From Fidelibacterota bacterium (GTDB lineage: Bacteria > Fidelibacterota > Marinisomatia > Marinisomatales > TCS55), in the NCBI GenBank assembly GCA_002701785.1, contig NZXC01000017.1:11800-26473 (forward strand): a stretch of DNA of 14,674 bases. The letters run 5' to 3'. Of the stretch, positions 1,172-12,343 are shown piece by piece. The position numbers and the translations under genes were made by a program. Each line of letters opens with the position of its first letter. The stretch's first letter is position 1. The notes beneath the pieces were generated by a model. The model did no database searches, had not been told where the DNA came from, and saw only the letters and a program-made list of their open reading frames with translations.

Positions 1172-2008
1172 ATGCCTGAACAAAAAAAATCAGTTTTTCA
1201 AGTAATCATTCATAGTTTTTTTGTTGTTCCATTTATTATTGCAATTTTTGGTGTATTAATATTCCTAATGGCTCGTGTGCTAACTTTAGAACCTAGAACT
1301 GCTCATGATTATTTAGAGGATGTAAAAATTGGAGGAAGAACAAAGCGCTGGCAAGGGGCATTCGAACTATCAAAAATTTTAGCGAACCCAAATAGTATTC
1401 CCACTGATGATAGGTTTGTAAATGATCTAATATCTACCTATAAATATTCTGAGAATGAAAGAGATAATAGAATACAGATTTATTTAGCACTTGCGATGGG
1501 TAGAACAAGGGACGAAAGATATTCAGATATTCTAGAAAACTCCTTAAACAATGAAGCTGAAGACATTTTAAGTGCTGTAATATTTTCTTTAGGCTTGATT
1601 GCTAATCAAAATAGTCTGGAAAAGTTATTGATATTAAATAATCATTCCTCTGCTAGGGTTCGGCATCAATTAGTTGTAGCTCTTGGTAATTATAATAATA
1701 ATCAATCTCGTAAAGTTTTATATGAATCATTAAATGATGTAGAGCCAAATGTTAGATGGGATGCAGCAATCTCTTTGGCAAAACAAAAAGATAATAAAGG
1801 ACGAAGAATAATATTAGATCTTATGGATAGAAAATATTTAGATTCTTTTCCTAATATTGATCCAATAGAACAAAACCAAGCTATGATGACAGCAATTGCT
1901 ATTAGTAAACAAATATTAGATGATGAAATAAAGGAAATGTTAATAGAATTGATGGATAACGATATCAATATGAAGATTCGTCAAGCTGCACGAAATGCAT
2001 TACAATAA
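1172..2008 (+). CDS. Membrane-anchored HEAT-repeat protein of the respiratory cluster
   Basis: This 278-residue protein has one hydrophobic segment at about residues 9-37 after a short charged N-terminus. From about residue 55 it continues as paired amphipathic helices of HEAT/PBS-lyase type. The clearest units lie at 98-125, 131-155 (DILSAVIFSLGLIA), 161-188 (ARVRHQLVVALGNY) and 192-220 (PNVRWDAAISLAKQKD), with a last one near 252-278. Such repeats are protein-binding scaffolds, and no catalytic motif is seen. It is the first gene of the cluster and ends 17 bases before the Rieske gene, so a role in assembling or holding the bc complex is plausible but inferred. The ATG at 1172 has no Shine-Dalgarno sequence; a possible TATAAT lies just upstream. 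The function is otherwise unknown. Confidence 0.8.
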   Translation: MPEQKKSVFQVIIHSFFVVPFIIAIFGVLIFLMARVLTLEPRTAHDYLEDVKIGGRTKRWQGAFELSKILANPNSIPTDDRFVNDLISTYKYSENERDNRIQIYLALAMGRTRDERYSDILENSLNNEAEDILSAVIFSLGLIANQNSLEKLLILNNHSSARVRHQLVVALGNYNNNQSRKVLYESLNDVEPNVRWDAAISLAKQKDNKGRRIILDLMDRKYLDSFPNIDPIEQNQAMMTAIAISKQILDDEIKEMLIELMDNDINMKIRQAARNALQ

Positions 2009-2025
2009 AGTATTGGATATATAAT

Positions 2026-2595
2026 ATGCCAGATGGTAAAAGCACAGTATCGAAGCCCCCAGATCCTAAGTCGCCTGCAGCACTTGGCAAAACGACAAAA
2101 GATAATGAAGATATAAATAGAAGATCTTTCTTTTCTTGGTTATCCTTTGGTTGGGTTGGATTTGTAGCTGCTACAGGTGGGTTCTTTACAATGATGTTGA
2201 GATTCTTGTTTCCTAATGTTCTTTTTGAGCCTGTACAAACTTTTCGGGCAGGTTACCCTGATGATTATATAATTGGTGCAGTTAATACGAAATGGAAAGA
2301 TAAATATGGAGTATGGATTATTCGAAATGATCAAGGTCTATATGCATTATCTACTGTATGTACCCATTTAGGATGTACACCAAATTGGCTTACTACATCT
2401 CGAAAATTTAAATGTCCTTGTCATGGAAGTGGATTTAAAATGACAGGAATTAATTTTGAGGGTCCTGCACCTAGGCCGCTTGAGAGATATCGTATTGTAC
2501 TTGCAGATAGTGGTGAAATTATAGTAGATAAGACTCAAAAGTATCAACAGGAAAAAGGCCAATGGAATGACCCAGAAGCATTTTTAACAGTATAG
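2026..2595 (+). CDS. petC: Rieske [2Fe-2S] protein of a bc-type complex
   Basis: A 189-residue Rieske iron-sulfur subunit that takes the first electron from quinol at the Qo site and passes it to a c-type heme. Both cluster-binding boxes are intact: CTHLGC at 112-117 (ligands C112, H114) and CPCHGSGF at 130-137 (ligands C130, C133-equivalent His), with C117 and C132 able to form the usual disulfide. GPAPRPLERY at 146-155 is the conserved segment after box II. The N-terminus carries a twin-arginine-like motif NRRSFF (31-36), followed by a hydrophobic anchor at about 38-62, as is usual for Tat-exported Rieske proteins. The start at 2026 is 17 bases after the HEAT gene. The stop is 9 bases before the cytochrome b start. 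The symbol follows b6f naming, since the cytochrome b partner is of the split b6 type. Confidence 0.95.
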   Translation: MPDGKSTVSKPPDPKSPAALGKTTKDNEDINRRSFFSWLSFGWVGFVAATGGFFTMMLRFLFPNVLFEPVQTFRAGYPDDYIIGAVNTKWKDKYGVWIIRNDQGLYALSTVCTHLGCTPNWLTTSRKFKCPCHGSGFKMTGINFEGPAPRPLERYRIVLADSGEIIVDKTQKYQQEKGQWNDPEAFLTV

Positions 2596-2604
2596 AGAAA
2601 AAAT

Positions 2605-3399
2605 ATGTCTGAAGAAAAAAATAAATCTTTTTTAGAAAAAGCAGCTGAATCGCAAGTATGGAGATCAATTTTTCGAGGTGGTGGTGTACCAAGAAATAGA
2701 CGTCAACGTATGATGTCAGTATTGAATTCAGTTTTCTTACACTTACATCCTGTTCGACTTCCAAAACATGCAGTGAAATTAAAGTTCACATGGTGTATGG
2801 GTGGTTTATCTTTTTTTATATTTCTAATACTTACAATCTCTGGAATTCTATTAATGTTTTATTATAGACCAACAATAGAATATGCTTATACAGATATTAT
2901 TGATTTAGCTGAACAAGTTCCTTTTGGAATTATGCGTGAATTACATCGGTGGGGTGCCCATGCAATGGTCATTACTGTTTGGTTACATATGTTTAGAGTA
3001 TTTATGACTGGTTCATATAAGCCTCCTAGAGAATTCAATTGGTCTATTGGCGTGATATTACTATTGTTAACTCTATTATTGAGTTTTACAGGTTATCTAT
3101 TGCCTTGGGATCAATTAGCAATATGGGCAATAACAGTTGGTGGTAATATGGCTCGTGCTACTCCATTTCTAGGTTCAGAAGGTCCAGGCGCTTCTCTACT
3201 TGCAATCGGTGATATTAACTTTATTACCATGGGAAGTGATGCGAGATTTGCTTTGATTGGAGGTCGTTTTATGGGAGAAGCAGCTTTATTGCGGTTTTAT
3301 GTTTTACACTGTATAGGTCTACCATTTATTATTATGATTTTTATGGCTGTTCATTTTTGGAGAGTGAGAAAGGATGGCGGTATTTCCACACCAGTATAA
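2605..3399 (+). CDS. petB: Cytochrome b N-terminal subunit, b6-like (four heme-binding helices)
   Basis: A 264-residue membrane protein that binds two b hemes and forms part of both quinone sites. The helix-B ligands are H114 and H128 in [10 protein letters not shown]...WLHMFRV. The helix-D ligands are H235 and H250 in YVLHCIGLP...AVHFWRVRK. The helix-D spacing is 15 residues, as in cytochrome b6 and menaquinol bc complexes, not the 14 of mitochondrial-type cytochrome b. [13 protein letters not shown] (163-175) is the Qo-side motif in its b6-like form. An N-terminal soluble extension of about 50 residues precedes helix A (about 66-87). The protein stops after helix D, and the remaining helices are in the next gene, which starts two bases after this stop. 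The cytochrome b of this complex is therefore split and the two halves are probably translated together. Only a weak AGAG-like ribosome site is seen. Confidence 0.95.
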
Positions 3400-3401
3400 T
3401 T

Positions 3402-4520
3402 ATGGGATCCTTTAAAGAAATAGTAAATACAATATCTAATCCAACAATATTATTCACTTCCGTTGTAATTATATTTCCTTTTGTATTTCCTCCGTCAGAC
3501 TGGTTTGAAAAATGGCACCGGAAATTAGGTTTACATCACTTATGGGGAACAAATGCAATTGTTATAGCCATGATAGCAATGGTTACTTTTTTTGTTTATG
3601 GTTTGGGAGATTATAATTTTCAGAAAATAGTATTGAAACCAGACAATGTTCCAATTTCAGGAATGATTTTTCTTGTCGTTTTCTTTACTTGGTTATCTAT
3701 GCATCAAGCGTATAAAAATGATGAAAGGTTAGATGCTGGTCAGAAGCCAGATGAGTTTTACGAAGCTCCAAATGATAAAGTATTAGTATGGCCAGATTTA
3801 GTATATGTTGAGCTTATTTCATTAATAATAATGTCAGCTTTTTTATTAGTATGGTCCATTGGTCTCCCTGCGCCAATTGAAGAACCTGCTAATCCTACAG
3901 AATCCCCAAATCCTGCAAAAGCGCCTTGGTATTTTTTGGGACTTCAGGAAATGTTAGTTTATTTTGATCCATGGATGGCTGGTGTTGTTTTGCCTAGTCT
4001 AATAATTGTTGGTTTAATGGCTATGCCTTATATAGATCGAAGTTCTGAAAACTCGGGATTTTATAGCTATAAACGTAGAAGACTGGCTATCTCTTTATTT
4101 ATGTTTGGATGGTTAGTCTTATGGGTTATGTTAATAATTGTAGGGACCGTATTAAGAGGTCCAAACTGGAATTTCTTTGGACCATTTGAATACTGGGATG
4201 TACATAAGTTGGAGGCGTTAACCAATATAAATTTATCAGAGATAGTTTACATAAAATTGTTGAGTACAGGATTACCTGATAGCATTTTATTACGTGAAAT
4301 TTGGGGCATTCTAATTACTCTTGCCTATTTTCTTATCTTACCTCCATTATTGGCTAAAACGATACTTAAGGATATGTATGCTAGATTGGGAGTAGTTAGA
4401 TATTCATTGTTTATTGTTTTAATCATTACTGCACTAACCCTACCTATTAAGATGTATCTTAGGTGGATATTTAATTTGAAATATATTATTTCAATTCCTG
4501 AATATTTTTTCAATTTTTAA
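3402..4520 (+). CDS. petD: Cytochrome b C-terminal subunit (subunit-IV-like), enlarged
   Basis: A 372-residue partner of the b6-like protein that completes the Qo pocket. The recognisable core is PDLVYVELISLIIMSAFLLV (131-150, helix E), PNPAKAPWYFLGLQEML (169-185), DPWMAGVVLPSLIIVGLMAM (189-208, helix F), a further helix at about 228-250, and RGPNWNFFGPFEYWD (252-266). Two things stand out. The usual PEWY glutamate is alanine (APWYF, 174-178). The protein is also more than twice the usual length of about 160 residues: about 115 extra N-terminal residues hold three probable membrane segments (about 13-30, 51-67, 85-101), and a C-terminal part holds two more (about 301-319, 334-352). The start is placed at ATG 3402, two bases after the previous stop; an in-frame TTG at 3357 would overlap the previous gene by 43 bases and is less likely. 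No CxxCH motif is present. Confidence 0.88.
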   Translation: MGSFKEIVNTISNPTILFTSVVIIFPFVFPPSDWFEKWHRKLGLHHLWGTNAIVIAMIAMVTFFVYGLGDYNFQKIVLKPDNVPISGMIFLVVFFTWLSMHQAYKNDERLDAGQKPDEFYEAPNDKVLVWPDLVYVELISLIIMSAFLLVWSIGLPAPIEEPANPTESPNPAKAPWYFLGLQEMLVYFDPWMAGVVLPSLIIVGLMAMPYIDRSSENSGFYSYKRRRLAISLFMFGWLVLWVMLIIVGTVLRGPNWNFFGPFEYWDVHKLEALTNINLSEIVYIKLLSTGLPDSILLREIWGILITLAYFLILPPLLAKTILKDMYARLGVVRYSLFIVLIITALTLPIKMYLRWIFNLKYIISIPEYFFNF

Positions 4521-4531
4521 TTATTTAGTAT

Positions 4532-7500
4532 ATGTCAGAAAGTCAAGAAAGACACTATAATATCCTAAAGTTGAATCGTTTATTTGCGATTTCATCTATT
4601 ATATTTACCGCAGTTTGGTTACTTGTATTTTTTGATGATTATCAACGTCCTTGGAAAAAATACCAGAAAGAATTTCGAAAATTAGAAATTGAAAAGGTTC
4701 GTTCTGATCTTAGTGAATTGTCAATTCAATTAGAGAGTAATTCGAAGTATAATGTGCTTAAAGAGGAATTATTATTCTCAGAAAAAAAATTAGAAGGCCG
4801 TAAAAATGAATTAAATAATATTGTTAATGAACTTACAATATTGGAAGCAGTATTATATAAAAATAACCAATTGTATCAATTTGCAAAAGCAGATTTAGAT
4901 GTTCTCAAATATGATTATGAAAAAAGTCAATTTGGTCATATAAAGAGTGCAGATATAGAAAAAAAATATTTTACTCTTAAAGACAGTGTAGATAAGTATT
5001 TTTTGATACGAGAGCAATCAGAGACAAAAATTGATAAAGCAAATGAGACACGACAAGAAATAACCAAAGAAATTAGTCTAATAAATGGTTCCTTAACATC
5101 ATTGACCCGTGAAAAGAATATGATGGAAAGAAAATTATCCAAAGTTGATCCTGAAGCAATGACATTTGCTAATAAGATAGGTAATATTGTAAGAGATTTG
5201 CCTGTGCTTGATTTTATTGACCCTTATTATAAGGTTAAACAGGTAGTAGTTAATGATTTAGAAGAAGATCTTGTTTATATGGGAATGCCAAAAGTAGACC
5301 GTTGTGTTACTTGCCATGTTGGAATAGATAAAGATGGTTTCGAAGACGCTCCTCAGCCCTATACTACTCATCCAAAGCTTGATTTAATGGTAGGTCCGAG
5401 CTCATCTCATCCAATTAGTGAATTTGGATGTACTTCATGTCATGCAGGTCGTGGAAGAGGGACAGGATTTTATTCTTCTGCTCATAGCCCAAATGATAAA
5501 GAAACTGAGCATCGCTGGGAGGAAGAATACGATTGGGAGCCAATGCATTATTGGGAGAACCCTATGTTACCTACACGTTATACAGAGGCAGGTTGTTATA
5601 AATGTCATAGTGGTAATATGCCTTTAAAAGAAGCCGAAACATTAAGTCTTGGCTTATCAGTTTATGAAAAATCAGGTTGTTATGCATGTCATAATATTGA
5701 TCGTTGGGATGATGCGCCTAAGCCTGGACCCAGTCTTTATAAATTAGCATCAAAAACAAATAAAGACTGGACATATAAATGGATTATGGATCCCAGATCA
5801 TTTCGTCATAACACATGGATGCCTCATTTCTTTAACAAAGGGAATAATAGTTCTCCTGATGATATTAAAAGAAATGAACAAGAAGTTCTAGCTATGACCG
5901 AATATTTATTTAGTAAATCGGAATCCTATAAAACAATTAGTTTTGATGCTTCAGGAGACTATGATCGTGGCCGTGTTCTTGTGAATTCATTAGGATGCAA
6001 AGGATGCCATCAGATCCAACATGATCCTGAACCTAATTATGACCCAACAATTCAAGCTATACGTTCGGAGCAAGGTCCAAATTTGATTAACTTAGGATCT
6101 AAGGTAAATGAAGATTGGTTGATTAGCTGGTTAAAAAATCCATATAGTTATCATGAAGGAACTAAGATGCCAAATTTGCGGATAACAGATCAAGAAGCAA
6201 TAGATATCGCAACATTCTTATTAGCTGATAAAGATAAAGACTTTGATAATATGAATACTGCACAAATAAATGATGATGTCCTAAATGAAATTTCTGCTGA
6301 CTTTCTTTCTCAATTATTGAGACAATCTCAAATTGATGAAAAACTATCTAACATGAGTACCAAAGAAAAATTGAATTATTCTGGCGAAAAGCTTATTGGT
6401 CATTACGGATGTTATTCTTGTCATAATATTGCAGGATTTGAAGACCGAAAGCCAATAGGAATAGCTTTAGATGTTGAAGGAAGTAAATTGATTTCTAAAC
6501 TTGATTTTGGTTTCTGGCATAATGAAATACCTCATACAAAGTGGGATTGGTTTTATACAAAAATTAATAGACCAGAAACTTTTGATCTTATTCCTAATGA
6601 AGATGGGTCTGTATCAGTTAAAGAATTACGACCACTTGATAAATCACGCATGCCACATTATGGATTGAATGATAAGGAAATAAATGGTTTGGTTACTTTA
6701 ATAATGGGTTTAGTTAAGGATGAGATACCTGAAAGTAAACTTCCGGAAAAAACTCCAGATTATCTAGCAGTAACTAATGGAGAAAGGTTTATCCATACAA
6801 ATAATTGTCTAGGGTGTCATAAAATTGATGGAGAAGGAGGAGCAATTTGGCCTTCAACAGCTATATGGCTTGAAGAAATAGCGGGATCAGAAAACTCTGA
6901 GGATATGAGCATTGTTCAAAGTTTTAGTCCACCACTTTTAAATACTCAAGGTAAAAAGGTGCAGCCGGAATGGCTATTAAATTGGTTTCAAAATATATCT
7001 ATGATACGACCCCATTTGCAGGTGCGAATGCCCAGCTATGATTTTACCAATGAAGAATGGAACAGTGTAATTTCATATTTTCAATCGAAAGATGGCTTAT
7101 CATTGAAATATGAAAATCCGCATAATTTTTCGAAAGCATCTAATTCATATAAGGCAGGAGAAAAGATTCAGGAAGAAGGAGCTTGTATAAACTGTCATTT
7201 TTATGGAGAAATGAAACCACGTCAGGATGCTCTTACTTGGGCTCCAAATCTAGTTCTAACAAAAGAAAGACTTCGACCAGAATGGTTGATAGATTGGTTC
7301 AATAACCCTCAGACTATTATGCCAGGAACTACAATGCCTGCTCCTTATATGCCAGTTGATGAACCAATTTCTGATGTGAAAGAATATTGGGGTAATGAAG
7401 TTGCATCATTTGTTGGGGATACTACCGGCATGTTATACGGACTTATTGATTGGATGTGGGGTTTAGAAGGAAAAGAAGATGTTTCATTTATAGTAAAAGA

Positions 7501-7573
7501 ACATCTCGATAATAAAGGATACGGATTTATTTCGGATGATGAAGATGATGAATGGGGAGATGACGAATGGTAA
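4532..7573 (+). CDS. Membrane-anchored octaheme cytochrome c with long coiled coil; likely electron link from bc complex to oxidase
   Basis: This 1013-residue protein has a membrane anchor at about residues 15-34 and a long charged helical stretch at about 42-205 that looks like coiled coil. Eight CxxCH heme-c sites start at C258, C300, C355, C383, C489, C627, C759 and C885. The last five each precede a Met-Pro that can give the distal ligand: M430, M546, M707, M833, M935. They sit in repeated modules with a W(L/I)xxWxxNP-like segment (for example DWLISWLKNP at 528-537 and EWLIDWFNNP at 917-926). The first three have no such Met-Pro and may be His/His ligated; HPISEFGCTSCH (293-304) is typical of multiheme proteins. 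The position after the split cytochrome b suggests it replaces cytochrome c1 and probably the soluble carrier. The C-terminus is an acidic tail ending in EDDEWGDDEW, shared with oxidase subunit II. No Shine-Dalgarno site is seen at ATG 4532. The heme count is certain; the electron route is inferred. Confidence 0.9.
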   Translation: MSESQERHYNILKLNRLFAISSIIFTAVWLLVFFDDYQRPWKKYQKEFRKLEIEKVRSDLSELSIQLESNSKYNVLKEELLFSEKKLEGRKNELNNIVNELTILEAVLYKNNQLYQFAKADLDVLKYDYEKSQFGHIKSADIEKKYFTLKDSVDKYFLIREQSETKIDKANETRQEITKEISLINGSLTSLTREKNMMERKLSKVDPEAMTFANKIGNIVRDLPVLDFIDPYYKVKQVVVNDLEEDLVYMGMPKVDRCVTCHVGIDKDGFEDAPQPYTTHPKLDLMVGPSSSHPISEFGCTSCHAGRGRGTGFYSSAHSPNDKETEHRWEEEYDWEPMHYWENPMLPTRYTEAGCYKCHSGNMPLKEAETLSLGLSVYEKSGCYACHNIDRWDDAPKPGPSLYKLASKTNKDWTYKWIMDPRSFRHNTWMPHFFNKGNNSSPDDIKRNEQEVLAMTEYLFSKSESYKTISFDASGDYDRGRVLVNSLGCKGCHQIQHDPEPNYDPTIQAIRSEQGPNLINLGSKVNEDWLISWLKNPYSYHEGTKMPNLRITDQEAIDIATFLLADKDKDFDNMNTAQINDDVLNEISADFLSQLLRQSQIDEKLSNMSTKEKLNYSGEKLIGHYGCYSCHNIAGFEDRKPIGIALDVEGSKLISKLDFGFWHNEIPHTKWDWFYTKINRPETFDLIPNEDGSVSVKELRPLDKSRMPHYGLNDKEINGLVTLIMGLVKDEIPESKLPEKTPDYLAVTNGERFIHTNNCLGCHKIDGEGGAIWPSTAIWLEEIAGSENSEDMSIVQSFSPPLLNTQGKKVQPEWLLNWFQNISMIRPHLQVRMPSYDFTNEEWNSVISYFQSKDGLSLKYENPHNFSKASNSYKAGEKIQEEGACINCHFYGEMKPRQDALTWAPNLVLTKERLRPEWLIDWFNNPQTIMPGTTMPAPYMPVDEPISDVKEYWGNEVASFVGDTTGMLYGLIDWMWGLEGKEDVSFIVKEHLDNKGYGFISDDEDDEWGDDEW

Positions 7574-7654: not shown

Positions 7655-8368
7655 GTGAAAATTAAAATTATAGGAATGTTAATTGTTTTTGTTTTGATAG
7701 AAATTAGCTTTGCAGGTGATGTTCAAGGAAAAATTACATTTGATGGGAACGCCCCAAAAATGAAACCCTTAAGAATGGATGCGGACCCCGTATGTGTCGC
7801 TAATAATGAAATACAACCTAGAAAAGAATGGTTAGTGCTTGATGAAAATAACGGTGTAAAAAATGTATTGGTTTATGTAAAGGAGAGTAAATCTGGAACA
7901 TTAGTAGATATTGATTATGTACCTAAGGATAAAGCTGTTATCGATCAAAAAGGATGCGTTTATGTTCCTCATGTATTGGGTGTCATGGTAGGGCAACAGC
8001 TAGATATTCTAAATAGCGATGGTACTTTGCATAATATCCATGCACTACCTAAGGTAAACAAGGAATTCAATAAAGCTATGCCTAGATCAAAAAAACAAAT
8101 GTCTGTAACATTTGATAAAGTAGAAGCTCCATTTAAAGTTAAATGTGATGTTCATCCTTGGATGGGTGCATATTTAGGTGTTTTTGATCATCCCTATTTT
8201 GCAGTAACAGATGATAGTGGTTCTTATAGTATTTCTGGTTTAGCTCCTGGAAAATATGTTATTGAAGCGTGGCATGAAAAGCTTGGATCTCAGTCGGCTG
8301 ATATAACTGTGGATGATAGTGGTGTTTCTCAAGATTTTACTTTTAAGAAACCCAGTAAAAAGAAATAG
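7655..8368 (+). CDS. Exported amicyanin/plastocyanin-like copper protein with carboxypeptidase-regulatory-like domain
   Basis: A 237-residue protein with a cleavable signal peptide (residues 1-20, MKIKIIGMLI... ending SFA, then GDV), so it is placed in the periplasm. The type 1 copper set looks complete: H126 in LHNIHA, then C164, H167 and M170 in CDVHPWM. The C-x2-H-x2-M spacing is that of amicyanin; plastocyanin has C-x2-H-x4-M. C47 and C101 could form a disulfide. Residues 186-222 (SGSYSISGLAPGKYVIEAW) form a small carboxypeptidase-regulatory-like beta domain. The protein ends KKPSKKK, a strongly basic tail. It starts at GTG 7655 behind a strong Shine-Dalgarno site, 81 bases after the octaheme cytochrome and 45 before oxidase subunit I. 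A role as electron carrier to the oxidase is likely; a copper-delivery role is the main alternative. Confidence 0.85.
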   Translation: MKIKIIGMLIVFVLIEISFAGDVQGKITFDGNAPKMKPLRMDADPVCVANNEIQPRKEWLVLDENNGVKNVLVYVKESKSGTLVDIDYVPKDKAVIDQKGCVYVPHVLGVMVGQQLDILNSDGTLHNIHALPKVNKEFNKAMPRSKKQMSVTFDKVEAPFKVKCDVHPWMGAYLGVFDHPYFAVTDDSGSYSISGLAPGKYVIEAWHEKLGSQSADITVDDSGVSQDFTFKKPSKKK

Positions 8369-8413: not shown

Positions 8414-10138
8414 ATGAGCGAACATACTCACCACGAAGAATCTTTTTTCCGAAAATATATTTGGTCAACAGATCATAAAATAATTGGTTTACAGTATGGT
8501 TTTACGGCTTTGTTTTTTTTACTTGTAGGTTTTTCATTAATGATGGTTATGCGTTGGCAGTTGGCTTATCCTGAAACACCTATTCCATTTGTAGGCTCAT
8601 TGTTTGGAGAAGATGGATTATTACTTCCTGACATCTATAATTCACTAGGTGCAATGCATGGAACTATTATGATTTTCCTTGGTATTGTTCCGCTTGCTGT
8701 TGGTGCTTTTGGCAATTATTTGGTGCCATTACAAATTGGTGCTCCCGATATGGCTTTTCCTAAGCTTAATGCTGCTAGTTATTGGAGTTATCTCGTAGGT
8801 GGACTTGTAATGATGAGTAGTTTCTTTACTGAAGAAGGCGCTGCTAGGTCCGGTTGGACTTCCTACCCACCGTTAGCTAATATTGAATTTGGTCAAACTA
8901 TTTGGCTTATAGGGATGATATTTTTAATCACCTCAAGTTTATTGGGATCGATGAATATAATCACTACGATTGTTCAACTTCGTGCGCCAGGTTTAACATG
9001 GATGAGATTGCCGTTTTTCGTATGGGCACAGTTTGTTACTTCCTTTTTGCTGGTATTAGCTTTTCCTCCATTGGAAGCAGCTGCTGTTCTCCAGCTGATG
9101 GATCGTGTAGTGGGAACAAGTTTCTTTTTGCCTAGTGGACTGGTGGTTGCAGGTGAAGTAATGGAAGTTAGTGGAGGAGGAAGTCCATTATTATGGCAAC
9201 ATCTCTTTTGGTTTTTAGCTCATCCAGAAGTTTATGTCTTAATTTTACCGGCAATGGGTGTTGTATCCGAAGTAATTGCTAATAATACCCGTAAACCACT
9301 ATGGGGTTATAATTCATTAGTTTTTGCTGCAGTCTTTCTTGGTTTCATGTCTTTTATTGTATGGGCTCATCATATGTTTTTAACTGGAATGGGGACTACA
9401 ATGAGTGCTTTTTTCCAAACAACAACTATGATTATTTCTATCCCATCTGTTATTATTTTATCTGCATTATTTATTTCATTATGGGGAGCATCAATTCGTT
9501 TTAATACTCCAATGTTATTTGCCCTAGCTTTTTTGCCAATGTTTGGTATCGGTGGGCTAACGGGTTTACCCTTAGGATTTGCTGCAGCTGACATTTATTT
9601 ACATGACACCTATTATGTGATTGGTCATTTTCATTATGTTGTGGCACCAGGTACTATTTTTGGTCTATTTGCTGGTATTTATTATTGGTATCCAAAAATA
9701 ACGGGTAGAAAAATGAATGAACTTCTAGGTAAAATACATTTTTGGCCATCGCTTTTATTCATGAATGGTATCTTTATGCCTATGTTTATACAAGGATTGG
9801 CTGGGGTTTCACGGCGACTTTGGGATGGGGGTCTGGAATATGCGCATGCAGCAGGTGTTCTTCATTGGAATGAATTTATGTCAATTTCTGCGTGGCTATT
9901 AGGACTAGCACAAATTCCTTTTATCTTTAATGTTTTTTATAGTTTAAGAAGTGGGGAAAAAGTAGATAACAATCCTTGGCAGGCCACCACTCTGGAATGG
10001 GAGGCTCCATCGCCACCTTTGCCTCATGTAAATTTTGAAAAATTACCTGAGGTTCATAGAGAACCATATGAATATAGCGTTCCTGGTCGTAATAGAGATT
10101 ATACTCCACAAACAGAACCGAAAAAGGATCAATATTAA
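8414..10138 (+). CDS. ctaD: Cytochrome c oxidase subunit I (A-type heme-copper oxidase)
   Basis: A 574-residue catalytic subunit with about 12 membrane helices that reduces O2 to water at a heme-copper centre. Ligands are in place: H82 and H407 for the low-spin heme, H405 for heme a3 (GHFHYVV), and H270, H319 and H320 for CuB. Y274 is in HPEVY, where it can form the His-Tyr crosslink. D-pathway residues N101, D112, N119 and E272 are present, so it is A1-like. Ungapped alignment from HH319-320 to the next helix places I348 where bovine K319 (K-pathway) is expected, and S345 for T316; S285 is kept and E286 replaces the bovine His256. The C-terminal soluble part (about 512-574) is rich in Pro, Glu and Tyr. 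It heads the oxidase gene block; subunit III starts two bases after its stop. With ctaA and ctaB downstream, heme A is the expected cofactor. Confidence 0.97.
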   Translation: MSEHTHHEESFFRKYIWSTDHKIIGLQYGFTALFFLLVGFSLMMVMRWQLAYPETPIPFVGSLFGEDGLLLPDIYNSLGAMHGTIMIFLGIVPLAVGAFGNYLVPLQIGAPDMAFPKLNAASYWSYLVGGLVMMSSFFTEEGAARSGWTSYPPLANIEFGQTIWLIGMIFLITSSLLGSMNIITTIVQLRAPGLTWMRLPFFVWAQFVTSFLLVLAFPPLEAAAVLQLMDRVVGTSFFLPSGLVVAGEVMEVSGGGSPLLWQHLFWFLAHPEVYVLILPAMGVVSEVIANNTRKPLWGYNSLVFAAVFLGFMSFIVWAHHMFLTGMGTTMSAFFQTTTMIISIPSVIILSALFISLWGASIRFNTPMLFALAFLPMFGIGGLTGLPLGFAAADIYLHDTYYVIGHFHYVVAPGTIFGLFAGIYYWYPKITGRKMNELLGKIHFWPSLLFMNGIFMPMFIQGLAGVSRRLWDGGLEYAHAAGVLHWNEFMSISAWLLGLAQIPFIFNVFYSLRSGEKVDNNPWQATTLEWEAPSPPLPHVNFEKLPEVHREPYEYSVPGRNRDYTPQTEPKKDQY

Positions 10139-10140
10139 TT

Positions 10141-10737
10141 ATGAATATTCCTTATACAGTTGAAGAAAGGCCCGATACTGGATTATATAATGCGAAATTG
10201 GGAATTTGGTTATTTCTTGCATCAGAGGTTATGTTATTTGGTGGGCTATTTTCTGCATATGTTTTTTTGAGATTTGGTGCTCCTGAAGGGGCATTTCATG
10301 AATGGGGAAAAGAATTAAATATTCCATTAGCAACAATTAATACAATGATATTGATTTCTTCTAGTGTGACGATGGTAATGTCATGGGCTTCTTTAAAGCT
10401 TAAAGATTTTAAAAAATACAAATTTTATATGGGTATTACATTGTTATGTGCCTTGGGTTTTTTAGTTATTAAATACTTAGAGTATACTGCAAAGTTCGAT
10501 CATCATATTTACCCAAGTACCAATACATTTTATGCTATATATTTTACTCTTACAGGACTCCATGGATTACATATTATTGGAGGTATGGTAGTCCTTTTTT
10601 ATTTATGGATGCCCGGTAGTAAAATGTGGCATTCAAAACCAGAACAATTTACAAATAGAATTGAAACTGTAGGATTGTATTGGCATTTTGTTGATTTGGT
10701 ATGGATATTCCTTTTCCCAATTCTATACTTATTATAG
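10141..10737 (+). CDS. ctaE: Cytochrome c oxidase subunit III, five-helix form
   Basis: A 198-residue membrane subunit of the oxidase. It shows the conserved WLFLASEVMLFGGLFSAYVF (23-42) with the family glutamate E29, then GLHGLHIIGGM in the middle, and YWHFVDLVWIFLFP near the C-terminus, which is the subunit III signature. The length corresponds to the short bacterial form with five helices; mitochondrial subunit III has seven. Subunit III binds no metal and stabilises subunit I and proton uptake through the D-pathway. The start is two bases after the ctaD stop. Its TAG stop (10735-10737) is embedded in the Shine-Dalgarno sequence of the next gene, so the two are probably translationally linked. 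Confidence 0.96.
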   Translation: MNIPYTVEERPDTGLYNAKLGIWLFLASEVMLFGGLFSAYVFLRFGAPEGAFHEWGKELNIPLATINTMILISSSVTMVMSWASLKLKDFKKYKFYMGITLLCALGFLVIKYLEYTAKFDHHIYPSTNTFYAIYFTLTGLHGLHIIGGMVVLFYLWMPGSKMWHSKPEQFTNRIETVGLYWHFVDLVWIFLFPILYLL

Positions 10738-10741
10738 GAGG
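10735..10741 (+). promoter_or_regulatory. Shine-Dalgarno site overlapping the ctaE stop codon
   Basis: TAGGAGG holds the ctaE stop codon and a full AGGAGG, four bases before the ATG at 10746. This fixes the start of subunit IV at 10746. The in-frame ATG at 10701 would lie inside ctaE and has no such site. Confidence 0.85.
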
Positions 10742-10745
10742 TTTT

Positions 10746-11054
10746 ATGACTAGTGGACATGACACAGCGGATATAAAAAATCATATAAAAGTATATATGA
10801 TGGTTTTTGCAGCATTAGCTTTTTTGACAATAATCACAGTTGCTGCATCTTACTTAGATTTGAGTAGTGGTGAAGCAATTTTCCTTGCGTTAGCTATTGC
10901 TTCTATCAAAGGCTCTTTGGTGGCGAGCTATTTTATGCATTTAATATCTGAGCGTGCTTTAATTACTTGGATATTGATGCTTACAGCCGGTTTCTTTTTT
11001 ATATTAATGTTCATTCCTATGGCTTCGTTAATAGATCAGGCAAGGTTAGGATGA
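10746..11054 (+). CDS. ctaF: Cytochrome c oxidase subunit IV (prokaryotic COX4 type)
   Basis: A 102-residue protein with three membrane helices (about 15-35, 43-62 and 72-94). The pattern ALAIASIKGSLVASYFMHL (48-66) is typical of bacterial subunit IV, which helps assemble the CuB-containing oxidase core. The start at 10746 follows a full AGGAGG; the longer form from 10701 would add 15 residues that are only a frame-shifted reading of ctaE. Its TGA stop overlaps the ATG of the next gene in the sequence ATGA (11051-11054), which points to coupled translation. Confidence 0.9.
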   Translation: MTSGHDTADIKNHIKVYMMVFAALAFLTIITVAASYLDLSSGEAIFLALAIASIKGSLVASYFMHLISERALITWILMLTAGFFFILMFIPMASLIDQARLG

Positions 11055-11248
11055 TATCCCTAAAAACATTTCATATTCTTTTTATTGCTTTGGCTATTAT
11101 TCTAATGATTGGTTATGGTGCTTATGAATTAATAACACCATCTGCTCCAGGTATTATGTCAAATATTTTTGCTCTTTTATCATTTGCTGTAGGAGGTGCT
11201 TTACTATTCTATTTTGTTCGTATAATTCAAAAATTTAGGACAATATGA
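11051..11248 (+). CDS. Small two-helix membrane protein of the oxidase block, function unknown
   Basis: A 65-residue hydrophobic protein with two probable membrane helices (about 5-25 and 37-57) joined by a short Tyr- and Pro-containing loop (GAYELITPSAPG). I do not recognise a family and see no metal-binding motif. The start is taken at ATG 11051 because it overlaps the ctaF stop (ATGA) and its own stop overlaps the next start in the same way. An upstream in-frame ATG at 10967 would only add a frame-shifted reading of ctaF. The chain of overlaps between oxidase genes suggests an accessory subunit or assembly factor; this is inference from context. Confidence 0.7.
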   Translation: MISLKTFHILFIALAIILMIGYGAYELITPSAPGIMSNIFALLSFAVGGALLFYFVRIIQKFRTI

Positions 11249-11493
11249 AAAACACTATTAAACTGATATATTTATATACTTTAATTTGTTTTCCTAGAAT
11301 CTTATCAGCATGTGCAACGTGTTATGGCGCAGCAGATGCACCCGCTACTCAGGGATTAAATATGGCTATTCTTGTGTTACTGGCTTTTATAGGTATAATA
11401 CTATCATTAATTATTTTGACAATATTTTCATTTTATAAAAGATCAAAAGCATATCATTTGTCTTTATTAACTAAAATTGAAAATGGGGAATAA
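11245..11493 (+). CDS. Small Cys-x-x-Cys membrane protein of the oxidase block (possible lipoprotein), function unknown
   Basis: An 82-residue protein with a hydrophobic N-terminus followed by LSACATCYG (20-28), then a membrane helix at about 40-63 and a short basic-polar tail. LSAC fits a lipobox, so C23 could be lipidated; alternatively C23 and C26 form a redox or copper-binding pair. The motif is CxxCY, not CxxCH, so it is not a heme site. It starts by ATGA overlap with the previous gene and ends 7 bases before ctaC, which encodes the CuA subunit. That position suggests a role in assembly or copper handling of subunit II, but nothing in the sequence proves it. I recall similar short unnamed proteins in oxidase operons, without a known function. 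Confidence 0.72.
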   Translation: MKNTIKLIYLYTLICFPRILSACATCYGAADAPATQGLNMAILVLLAFIGIILSLIILTIFSFYKRSKAYHLSLLTKIENGE

Positions 11494-11500
11494 TTAAGCT

Positions 11501-12343
11501 ATGCTAGAATTTCTTCAAAAATATGGACTACCAATTAGTCTCTCAGAGGCAGGCCCAGGAATTGATGAAATCATTGTCTTGACACATTGGCTTATGTTAT
11601 TTTTATTTATTGGTTGGGGATCTTTCTTTATTGTATCCTTAGTAAAATTTCGTTCATCAAAAAACCCCAAAGCGGATCATGTAGGTGTGAAATCTCACTT
11701 TTCTTCAGTGCTGGAAGTTGCTATTGCTGTAGTAGAAATAGTATTACTTATTGGTTTTGCTTTTCCAATATGGGCAAATCGGGTTAATAATGTCCCATCT
11801 ACAAATGATGGAGCGGTCCATATTCGTGTCGTTGCTCAACAGTATGTATGGAATATTCATTATACAGGACCCGATGGAATTTTTGGTGATTCAAGGTCGG
11901 AGCTAGTAGACGAGGTAGATAATCCAATAGGGATAGATAGATCTAGTCCAAACTCTGCTGATGATTTTTATACAATTAATCAATTACATATTCCAGTTAA
12001 TAAGAAAATTCGTATTGATTTATCAACAAAAGATGTTATTCATAGCTTTAAACTCCCAGAACTCCGTGTTGGCCAGGATGCCATCCCAGGGATGAGTATT
12101 CCAATTCATTTTACGGCTAACATGACTTCAGATCAATTTTTACAACAAATGATTGGAACTCCTCGTGAAGGTAAGGGCTTGGAAATAGCTTGTGCACAGT
12201 TATGCGGACTTGGACATTATCGGATGAGAGGATACTTAATAGTTGACACTGAAGAAGAATATAATGATTGGTTAAATTTGCAGGCTGAATATTTGTTAGA
12301 AGATAATGAAGAAGATGAATGGGGTGATGAGGAAGACTGGTAA
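11501..12343 (+). CDS. ctaC: Cytochrome c oxidase subunit II with CuA site and acidic C-terminal tail
   Basis: A 280-residue subunit that accepts electrons at a binuclear CuA centre in a periplasmic cupredoxin domain. Two membrane helices lie at about 24-48 and 69-91. CuA residues are H181 (DVIHSF), C231, Q233, C235, H239 and M242 in CAQLCGLGHYRM. The glutamine replaces the more common glutamate, which binds through its backbone, so copper binding should be kept. The aromatic patch before the domain is QQYVWNIHY (113-121). An acidic insertion with many Asp, Glu and Ser lies at about 124-157. No heme c domain is fused, so this is not a caa3-type subunit II. The last 14 residues (267-280) are acidic and end DEWGDEEDW, nearly the same tail as the octaheme cytochrome. 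Unusually, the gene lies after subunits I, III and IV. Confidence 0.96.
   Translation: MLEFLQKYGLPISLSEAGPGIDEIIVLTHWLMLFLFIGWGSFFIVSLVKFRSSKNPKADHVGVKSHFSSVLEVAIAVVEIVLLIGFAFPIWANRVNNVPSTNDGAVHIRVVAQQYVWNIHYTGPDGIFGDSRSELVDEVDNPIGIDRSSPNSADDFYTINQLHIPVNKKIRIDLSTKDVIHSFKLPELRVGQDAIPGMSIPIHFTANMTSDQFLQQMIGTPREGKGLEIACAQLCGLGHYRMRGYLIVDTEEEYNDWLNLQAEYLLEDNEEDEWGDEEDW

Follow-up and report, generated by a model that had tools for sequence, protein, structure and literature searches.

In yeast III-IV supercomplexes, cytochrome c docks electrostatically and diffuses in two dimensions, using negatively charged surfaces that the oxidase and the bc complex both offer (PMC8361435). In the actinobacterial bcc-aa3 supercomplex, it is the dihaem cytochrome cc domain of QcrC through which electrons pass from one complex to the other (PMC8361435). 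The locus described here resembles both systems: a carrier would meet negative charge on both complexes, as in yeast, and an aa3-type oxidase would receive its electrons from a multihaem c subunit on the bc side, as in the actinobacteria. It differs from the first in that the charge lies in a near-identical, Trp-closed tail, probably disordered, and that the likely carrier is a cupredoxin, and from the second in that the cytochrome carries eight haems and that the gene of a separate carrier lies in between. The cupredoxin itself is like amicyanin (PDB 1sf3, 1aac; TIGR02657) in its fold and C-x2-H-x2-M ligand loop, and unlike it in having an extra C-terminal domain, a K-rich end and a place among respiratory genes. 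Where a carrier docks is usually deduced from charge on the surface of folded proteins; at this locus, a portable peptide may take that part. Titles and abstract openings in a largely open-access literature gave no description of a C-terminal tail shared in this way.

The window, by which we mean the whole stretch of 14,674 nucleotides analysed, contains one respiratory gene set comprising a HEAT-repeat protein, a Rieske protein, a split cytochrome b, an octaheme cytochrome, a cupredoxin and oxidase subunits:

1172..2008, + strand: HEAT-repeat protein with an N-terminal hydrophobic segment (PF13646), first gene of the complex
2026..2595, + strand: Rieske protein (Pfam-type family match)
2605..3399, + strand: cytochrome b, N-terminal half (family match)
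3357..4520, + strand: cytochrome b, C-terminal half (family match; the listed ORF begins upstream of the likely start)
4532..7573, + strand: octaheme c-type cytochrome of the bc-type complex, 1013 aa, 8 CxxCH
7535..7570, + strand: acidic, Trp-closed tail of the cytochrome, DDEDDEWGDDEW, residues 1002-1013, then stop
7655..8368, + strand: amicyanin-like cupredoxin with a C-terminal regulatory-like domain, the proposed shared carrier
8345..8365, + strand: lysine-rich C-terminus of the cupredoxin, KKPSKKK (from the translation)
8414..10138, + strand: oxidase subunit I (family match)
10141..10737, + strand: presumably oxidase subunit III, conserved in the operon
10701..11054, + strand: caa3-type subunit IV-like protein (TIGR02229)
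11501..12343, + strand: oxidase subunit II (CoxII), CuA motif CAQLCGLGHYRM (PF00116)
12299..12340, + strand: acidic, Trp-closed tail of CoxII, EDNEEDEWGDEEDW, residues 267-280, then stop

The positions of the two tails, each directly followed by a stop codon, are as the initial annotation gave them, and no other complete protein of the window carries the tail, as it also held (none among the listed complete ORFs). The cytochrome, cupredoxin and CoxII genes form one conserved neighbourhood, with the cupredoxin gene between the other two. CoxII belongs to the COX2 domain family by its PF00116 score (36.6 bits, cut-off 22) and scores below the cut-off of TIGR02866 (110.8 bits against 147.7); its CuA ligands C231, C235, H239 and M242 are invariant in an eight-row alignment. 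It is preceded at 11245-11493 by the gene of an 82-aa membrane protein with a CATCYGAA motif, which is kept in the operon and is without a Pfam or NCBIfam match. The name of subunit III at 10141..10737 was assigned from sequence and position, and on the same grounds we take further genes of the window to be ctaA, ctaB and a Sco-like gene.

The tail is restricted to these two proteins to an extent that exceeds chance. A scan of the window's genome (1.82 Mb, 93% complete) for [DE][DE]W directly before TRR gave 14 sites, of which 7 have a true stop, and the only frames longer than 24 aa closed by [DE][DE]W and a stop are the cytochrome and CoxII; DEWG is found at four further sites, all internal to other proteins. 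A stricter pattern, [DE]W[GDE][DE][DE]x(0-3)W, gave 71 matches in 61 genomes, a set that overlaps the named records considered below, so that the counts here and there are not independent of each other, and the reversed pattern, scanned as a control, gave 2. The 71 comprise 28 matches on the cytochrome (28 genomes), 31 on CoxII (30 genomes; one, in G043, straddles the stop codon of a protein ending EWDEE) and 12 elsewhere, with both proteins matched in 20 of the genomes. None of the 12 in these 61 genomes closes a protein as a C-terminal tail: three lie in frames open to the contig end, and the other nine are either internal or in short frames whose Trp is not followed by a stop. Similarly, acidic-aromatic ends were found on 96 of 1259 ORFs in 80 named loci (the best 80 of 564 relatives), and these belong to 63 cytochromes, 32 CoxII and one ferredoxin-like protein, as named by eye.

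Conservation was followed by scanning named genome records for the octaheme cytochrome and keeping the best 80 of 564 relatives, a choice that favours close kin. Four of these 80 cytochromes (L211, L222, L244 and L257) run off their contigs and were dropped. The Neomarinimicrobiota (SAR406) set consists of the window and the records not titled Omnitrophota, Planctomycetota or PVC, including nine titled only 'bacterium' that were placed by tree position. Within this selection (best 80 of 564), the tail is present on 65 of 67 complete octaheme cytochromes and, by a rule of at least six D/E in the last 16 residues and a W in the last 8, on all 54 CoxII, of which that of L223 passes weakly (…EEQADEIEIW). 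CoxII absent from the locus was sought in 30 genomes and matched in 25, leaving 13 of the 67 cytochromes unpaired. Both partners are tailed in 52 of the 54 pairs, CoxII alone in two and the cytochrome alone in none (best 80 of 564). The two untailed cytochromes are those of L186, where the C-terminal region is interrupted among ambiguous bases, probably through an artefact of assembly, and of L248, where the tail is present on CoxII and absent from the cytochrome.

What is kept in these tails is their acidity and closing Trp, while length, order and Trp number vary, as would be expected of a fuzzy handle. A W lies within the last three residues in 64 of 65 cytochrome tails and 52 of 54 CoxII tails, and K or R within the last eight in one cytochrome tail and no CoxII tail (both among the best 80 of 564); across 12 cytochromes, D1006, W1008 and W1013 hardly vary, and CoxII with longer C-termini (314-326 aa) likewise end in acidic-Trp runs. 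The number of Trp residues (one versus at least two) agrees in 45 of 52 cytochrome-CoxII pairs (Fisher p 1.4e-5). On the FastTree tree, changes in this number went the same way in about 3.6 cases, the opposite way in 0.1 and without difference in 3.3, the corresponding values in the other direction being 3.3, 0.0 and 1.7; these are too few independent changes for a significant sign test, and covariation of Trp number was set aside.

Outside the phylum, the tail is missing from all 10 complete cytochromes of Omnitrophota, Planctomycetota and PVC records, and the five paired CoxII end DDFWN, DDFWQ, DDFWK or DDFFN, typically DDFWN (all among the best 80 of 564 relatives); that of a sixth outgroup genome, the genome of L260, ends DDFWS. 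The same is seen among the 120 best database homologues (P0001-P0120) of one Omnitrophota CoxII, picked by similarity to that query, 119 of which have FW beside an acidic residue in the last six positions (for example DDFWN, DSFWN and DDFWGS), with P0009 as the single exception. This Omnitrophota-type end, a D[DS]FWN that hardly varies and follows a variable S/G/E-rich stretch, makes a separate motif. A second tailed protein was also sought in 11 outgroup genomes, where D-x-F-W-x followed by TRR has 95 sites against 66 for the reversed control. The D[DS]FW[NQKS]-stop sites among them are six CoxII, identified by tblastn (G091:C14, G096:C136, G095:C39, G098:C301) or by coordinates (G090:C125, G090:C274), and the end of a 13-aa frame at G090:C95, with no second tailed protein among these; the remaining sites were judged from the matched letters only. 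By this pattern and the fetched loci, CoxII was not seen in G092, G094, G097, G099 and G100.

Since the CoxII end is acidic-aromatic in outgroups whose cytochrome is untailed, the CoxII tail looks older and the cytochrome tail acquired. Tail presence changes three times on the cytochrome tree, which was rooted on the outgroup by choice: between the outgroup and the rest, at L248, a long branch, and at L220, which has an acidic-Trp end that the simple tail label missed. As judged from these sequences, the likely order is that CoxII was tailed first, that the cytochrome gained its tail on the Neomarinimicrobiota stem and that L248 lost it. We can envisage, with more reserve than we attach to the docking role proposed below, that the acid-Trp motif arose on CoxII and that the unrelated octaheme cytochrome converged on it, leaving the sites of electron exit and entry with a common handle for the cupredoxin. 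These results give a divided answer to the check proposed in the initial annotation, whether the tail occurs only on these two proteins and always in pairs: within Neomarinimicrobiota, exclusivity and pairing hold (52 of 54 pairs, best 80 of 564), whereas in the outgroups and in L248 only CoxII is tailed, a one-sided occurrence that the initial annotation had itself named as counter-evidence. The tail is thus not an obligate pair tag, given CoxII-only tails outside the phylum and in L248 and a second CoxII without a tailed neighbour (see below). The exclusivity and the pairing within Neomarinimicrobiota fit the suggested common docking partner.

The tail of the cytochrome is probably disordered, judging from an AF2 model (mean pLDDT 78.0, shallow alignment of 41) in which residues 1002-1013 have pLDDT 31-36 and confidence drops from 87 to 65 across a helix predicted just before them, at 985-995. 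Low pLDDT is also found at residues 1-9 and over most of 222-312; AF2 models were used for confidence and secondary structure only. A low-confidence end of this kind, its extreme C-terminal position and its near-invariant Trp are what one might expect of an assembly or maturation tag, with one periplasmic factor reading both C-termini during insertion or cofactor loading. The cofactors of the two proteins differ, however (haem c versus CuA), and the outgroup cytochromes do without the tail (0/10, best 80 of 564), making such a tag quite improbable.

Our preferred reading, which we hold tentatively, is that the two tails act as flexible handles on which a single periplasmic carrier docks. The most likely carrier is the amicyanin-like cupredoxin, whose binding we infer. 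The acidic stretch would draw the carrier in, the Trp would contact its surface near the metal site, and the local concentration of carrier would be raised at electron exit (the octaheme cytochrome) and entry (the CuA of CoxII). The matching tail gained later by the cytochrome of Neomarinimicrobiota would then give the same grip at both stations. Acidic C-terminal peptides of the SSB type, which are disordered and closed by an aromatic residue, recruit partners; they serve cytoplasmic DNA metabolism, unlike the tails described here, and no homology is implied. If docking handles are indeed what these tails are, they would amount to a phylum-wide, sequence-encoded steering of a soluble carrier between two complexes, and the electrostatic and aromatic shares in carrier shuttling could be told apart simply by deleting or exchanging tails. 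The tail also offers a clue, open to experiment, to the respiratory chain of a marine phylum that is known for the most part through genome assemblies.

Several observations bear on the cupredoxin as carrier. With H126, H129, C164, H167 and M170 invariant in 40 rows and an AF2 model of pLDDT 89.5 whose best Foldseek matches are amicyanin (E 2e-6), the protein is a predicted type 1 copper cupredoxin by both its His-Cys-His-Met ligand set and its fold; against the amicyanin equivalog TIGR02657 it scores 18.7 bits (E 0.0017), under the cut-off of 110.2, which places it outside that equivalog. No small c-type cytochrome was found in the window's genome (93% complete) with PF00034 and PF13442, the two families searched, whose matches (E up to 0.1) sit in open frames of 466-1014 aa; G022, a relative with alternative complex III (ACIII), does encode a 195-aa monohaem cytochrome. 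A relative of the cupredoxin is present in 57 of the 80 named loci (best 80 of 564), many of which are incomplete. It ends KK in 51 of 53 Neomarinimicrobiota, with RPKK or a longer form in 27 of the 53, versus 11 of 120 Omnitrophota-type homologues, and its last 12 residues carry an average net charge of +3.6 versus +0.9. L240, one of the four outgroup cupredoxins, also ends KK.

Charge shifts in opposite directions in the proposed partners, in group comparisons that ignore kinship and use a small outgroup: the cupredoxin core (residues 22-233, leaving out the last residues) is at +2.6 (n=52) in Neomarinimicrobiota versus -3.2 in four outgroup loci (p 0.021), and the CuA domain of CoxII at -10.1 (n=33) versus -3.8 (n=4). 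The 120 Omnitrophota-type cupredoxins average -3.6, by the slightly different measure of the mature protein. The cytochrome body is likewise more acidic in Neomarinimicrobiota than in the outgroup. The Rieske protein turns basic too (+0.9 versus -1.8, p 1.4e-4, again with kinship ignored), so the basic shift is not unique to the cupredoxin. Within the phylum, cupredoxin charge scarcely correlates with that of the cytochrome tail (rho -0.10, p 0.50, n=51) or of the CoxII tail (rho -0.29, p 0.06, n=44), and the window's own cupredoxin is about neutral. In the Omnitrophota-type sets, an acidic cupredoxin stands alongside the near-invariant DDFWN end of CoxII, so that a simple charge attraction cannot explain how the tail works there. 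The charge argument for the cupredoxin as tail ligand is suggestive only. The greater acidity of the CuA domain and of the cytochrome body might also be taken as a sign of lineage-wide acidic drift, a marine adaptation that places acidic ends on surface proteins without any specific partner. Drift is the least probable of the explanations considered here, since the cupredoxin and Rieske proteins move toward basic, the tail Trp is near-invariant, and neither the other frames above 24 aa of the window's genome ([DE][DE]W ends) nor, with hardly an exception, the other ORFs of the 80 loci (best 80 of 564) share such an end.

A common tail could also suggest one receptor, and the two tails might be bound by a third protein that tethers the bc-type complex to the oxidase as a supercomplex. 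The HEAT-repeat protein is one candidate, as HEAT repeats commonly bind extended peptides and its gene lies upstream of those of the Rieske protein and the cytochrome in relatives. Such a tether is nevertheless less likely: the HEAT gene is also found in outgroups with an untailed cytochrome, the protein is itself net acidic, with a charge that is alike between groups (-7.4, n=60 versus -5.6, n=8, p 0.44), and a second CoxII beside alternative complex III has a similar block with no bc-type partner adjoining. Neither presence nor charge gave a signal for the HEAT protein as tail receptor. Docking handles would fit better than a supercomplex tag. The HEAT gene precedes the Rieske gene in Neomarinimicrobiota and in Omnitrophota/PVC relatives alike. 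The protein looks like a fixed part of the bc-type complex, and a membrane anchor is predicted from its sequence.

The second CoxII, found in several genomes, carries an acidic-Trp block of a similar kind, behind which comes WGWxWKE or a close variant. The paralogues are:

L087 15080-15880, - strand: second CoxII paralogue
L096 11418-12248, - strand: second CoxII paralogue
L239 21809-22687: second CoxII paralogue
L332 4071-4934: second CoxII paralogue
L335 3857-4729: second CoxII paralogue

It adjoins alternative complex III genes in L087/L330 (ActD by Pfam) and apparently, by the look of the ORFs, in L335. In the one locus L330, a pentaheme gene, which was named an ACIII subunit from its five CxxCH and position, ends CAACHY and is without the tail, and in L335 the second CoxII has as its neighbour an eight-CxxCH ORF that likewise ends without a tail. 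ACIII was accordingly discarded as the tail partner of the second CoxII, whose block, standing beside an untailed pentaheme gene, needs no tailed partner. Near its main operon, G022 has a further Rieske and cytochrome b pair (L088 579-1870), a distant one of 31-36% identity.
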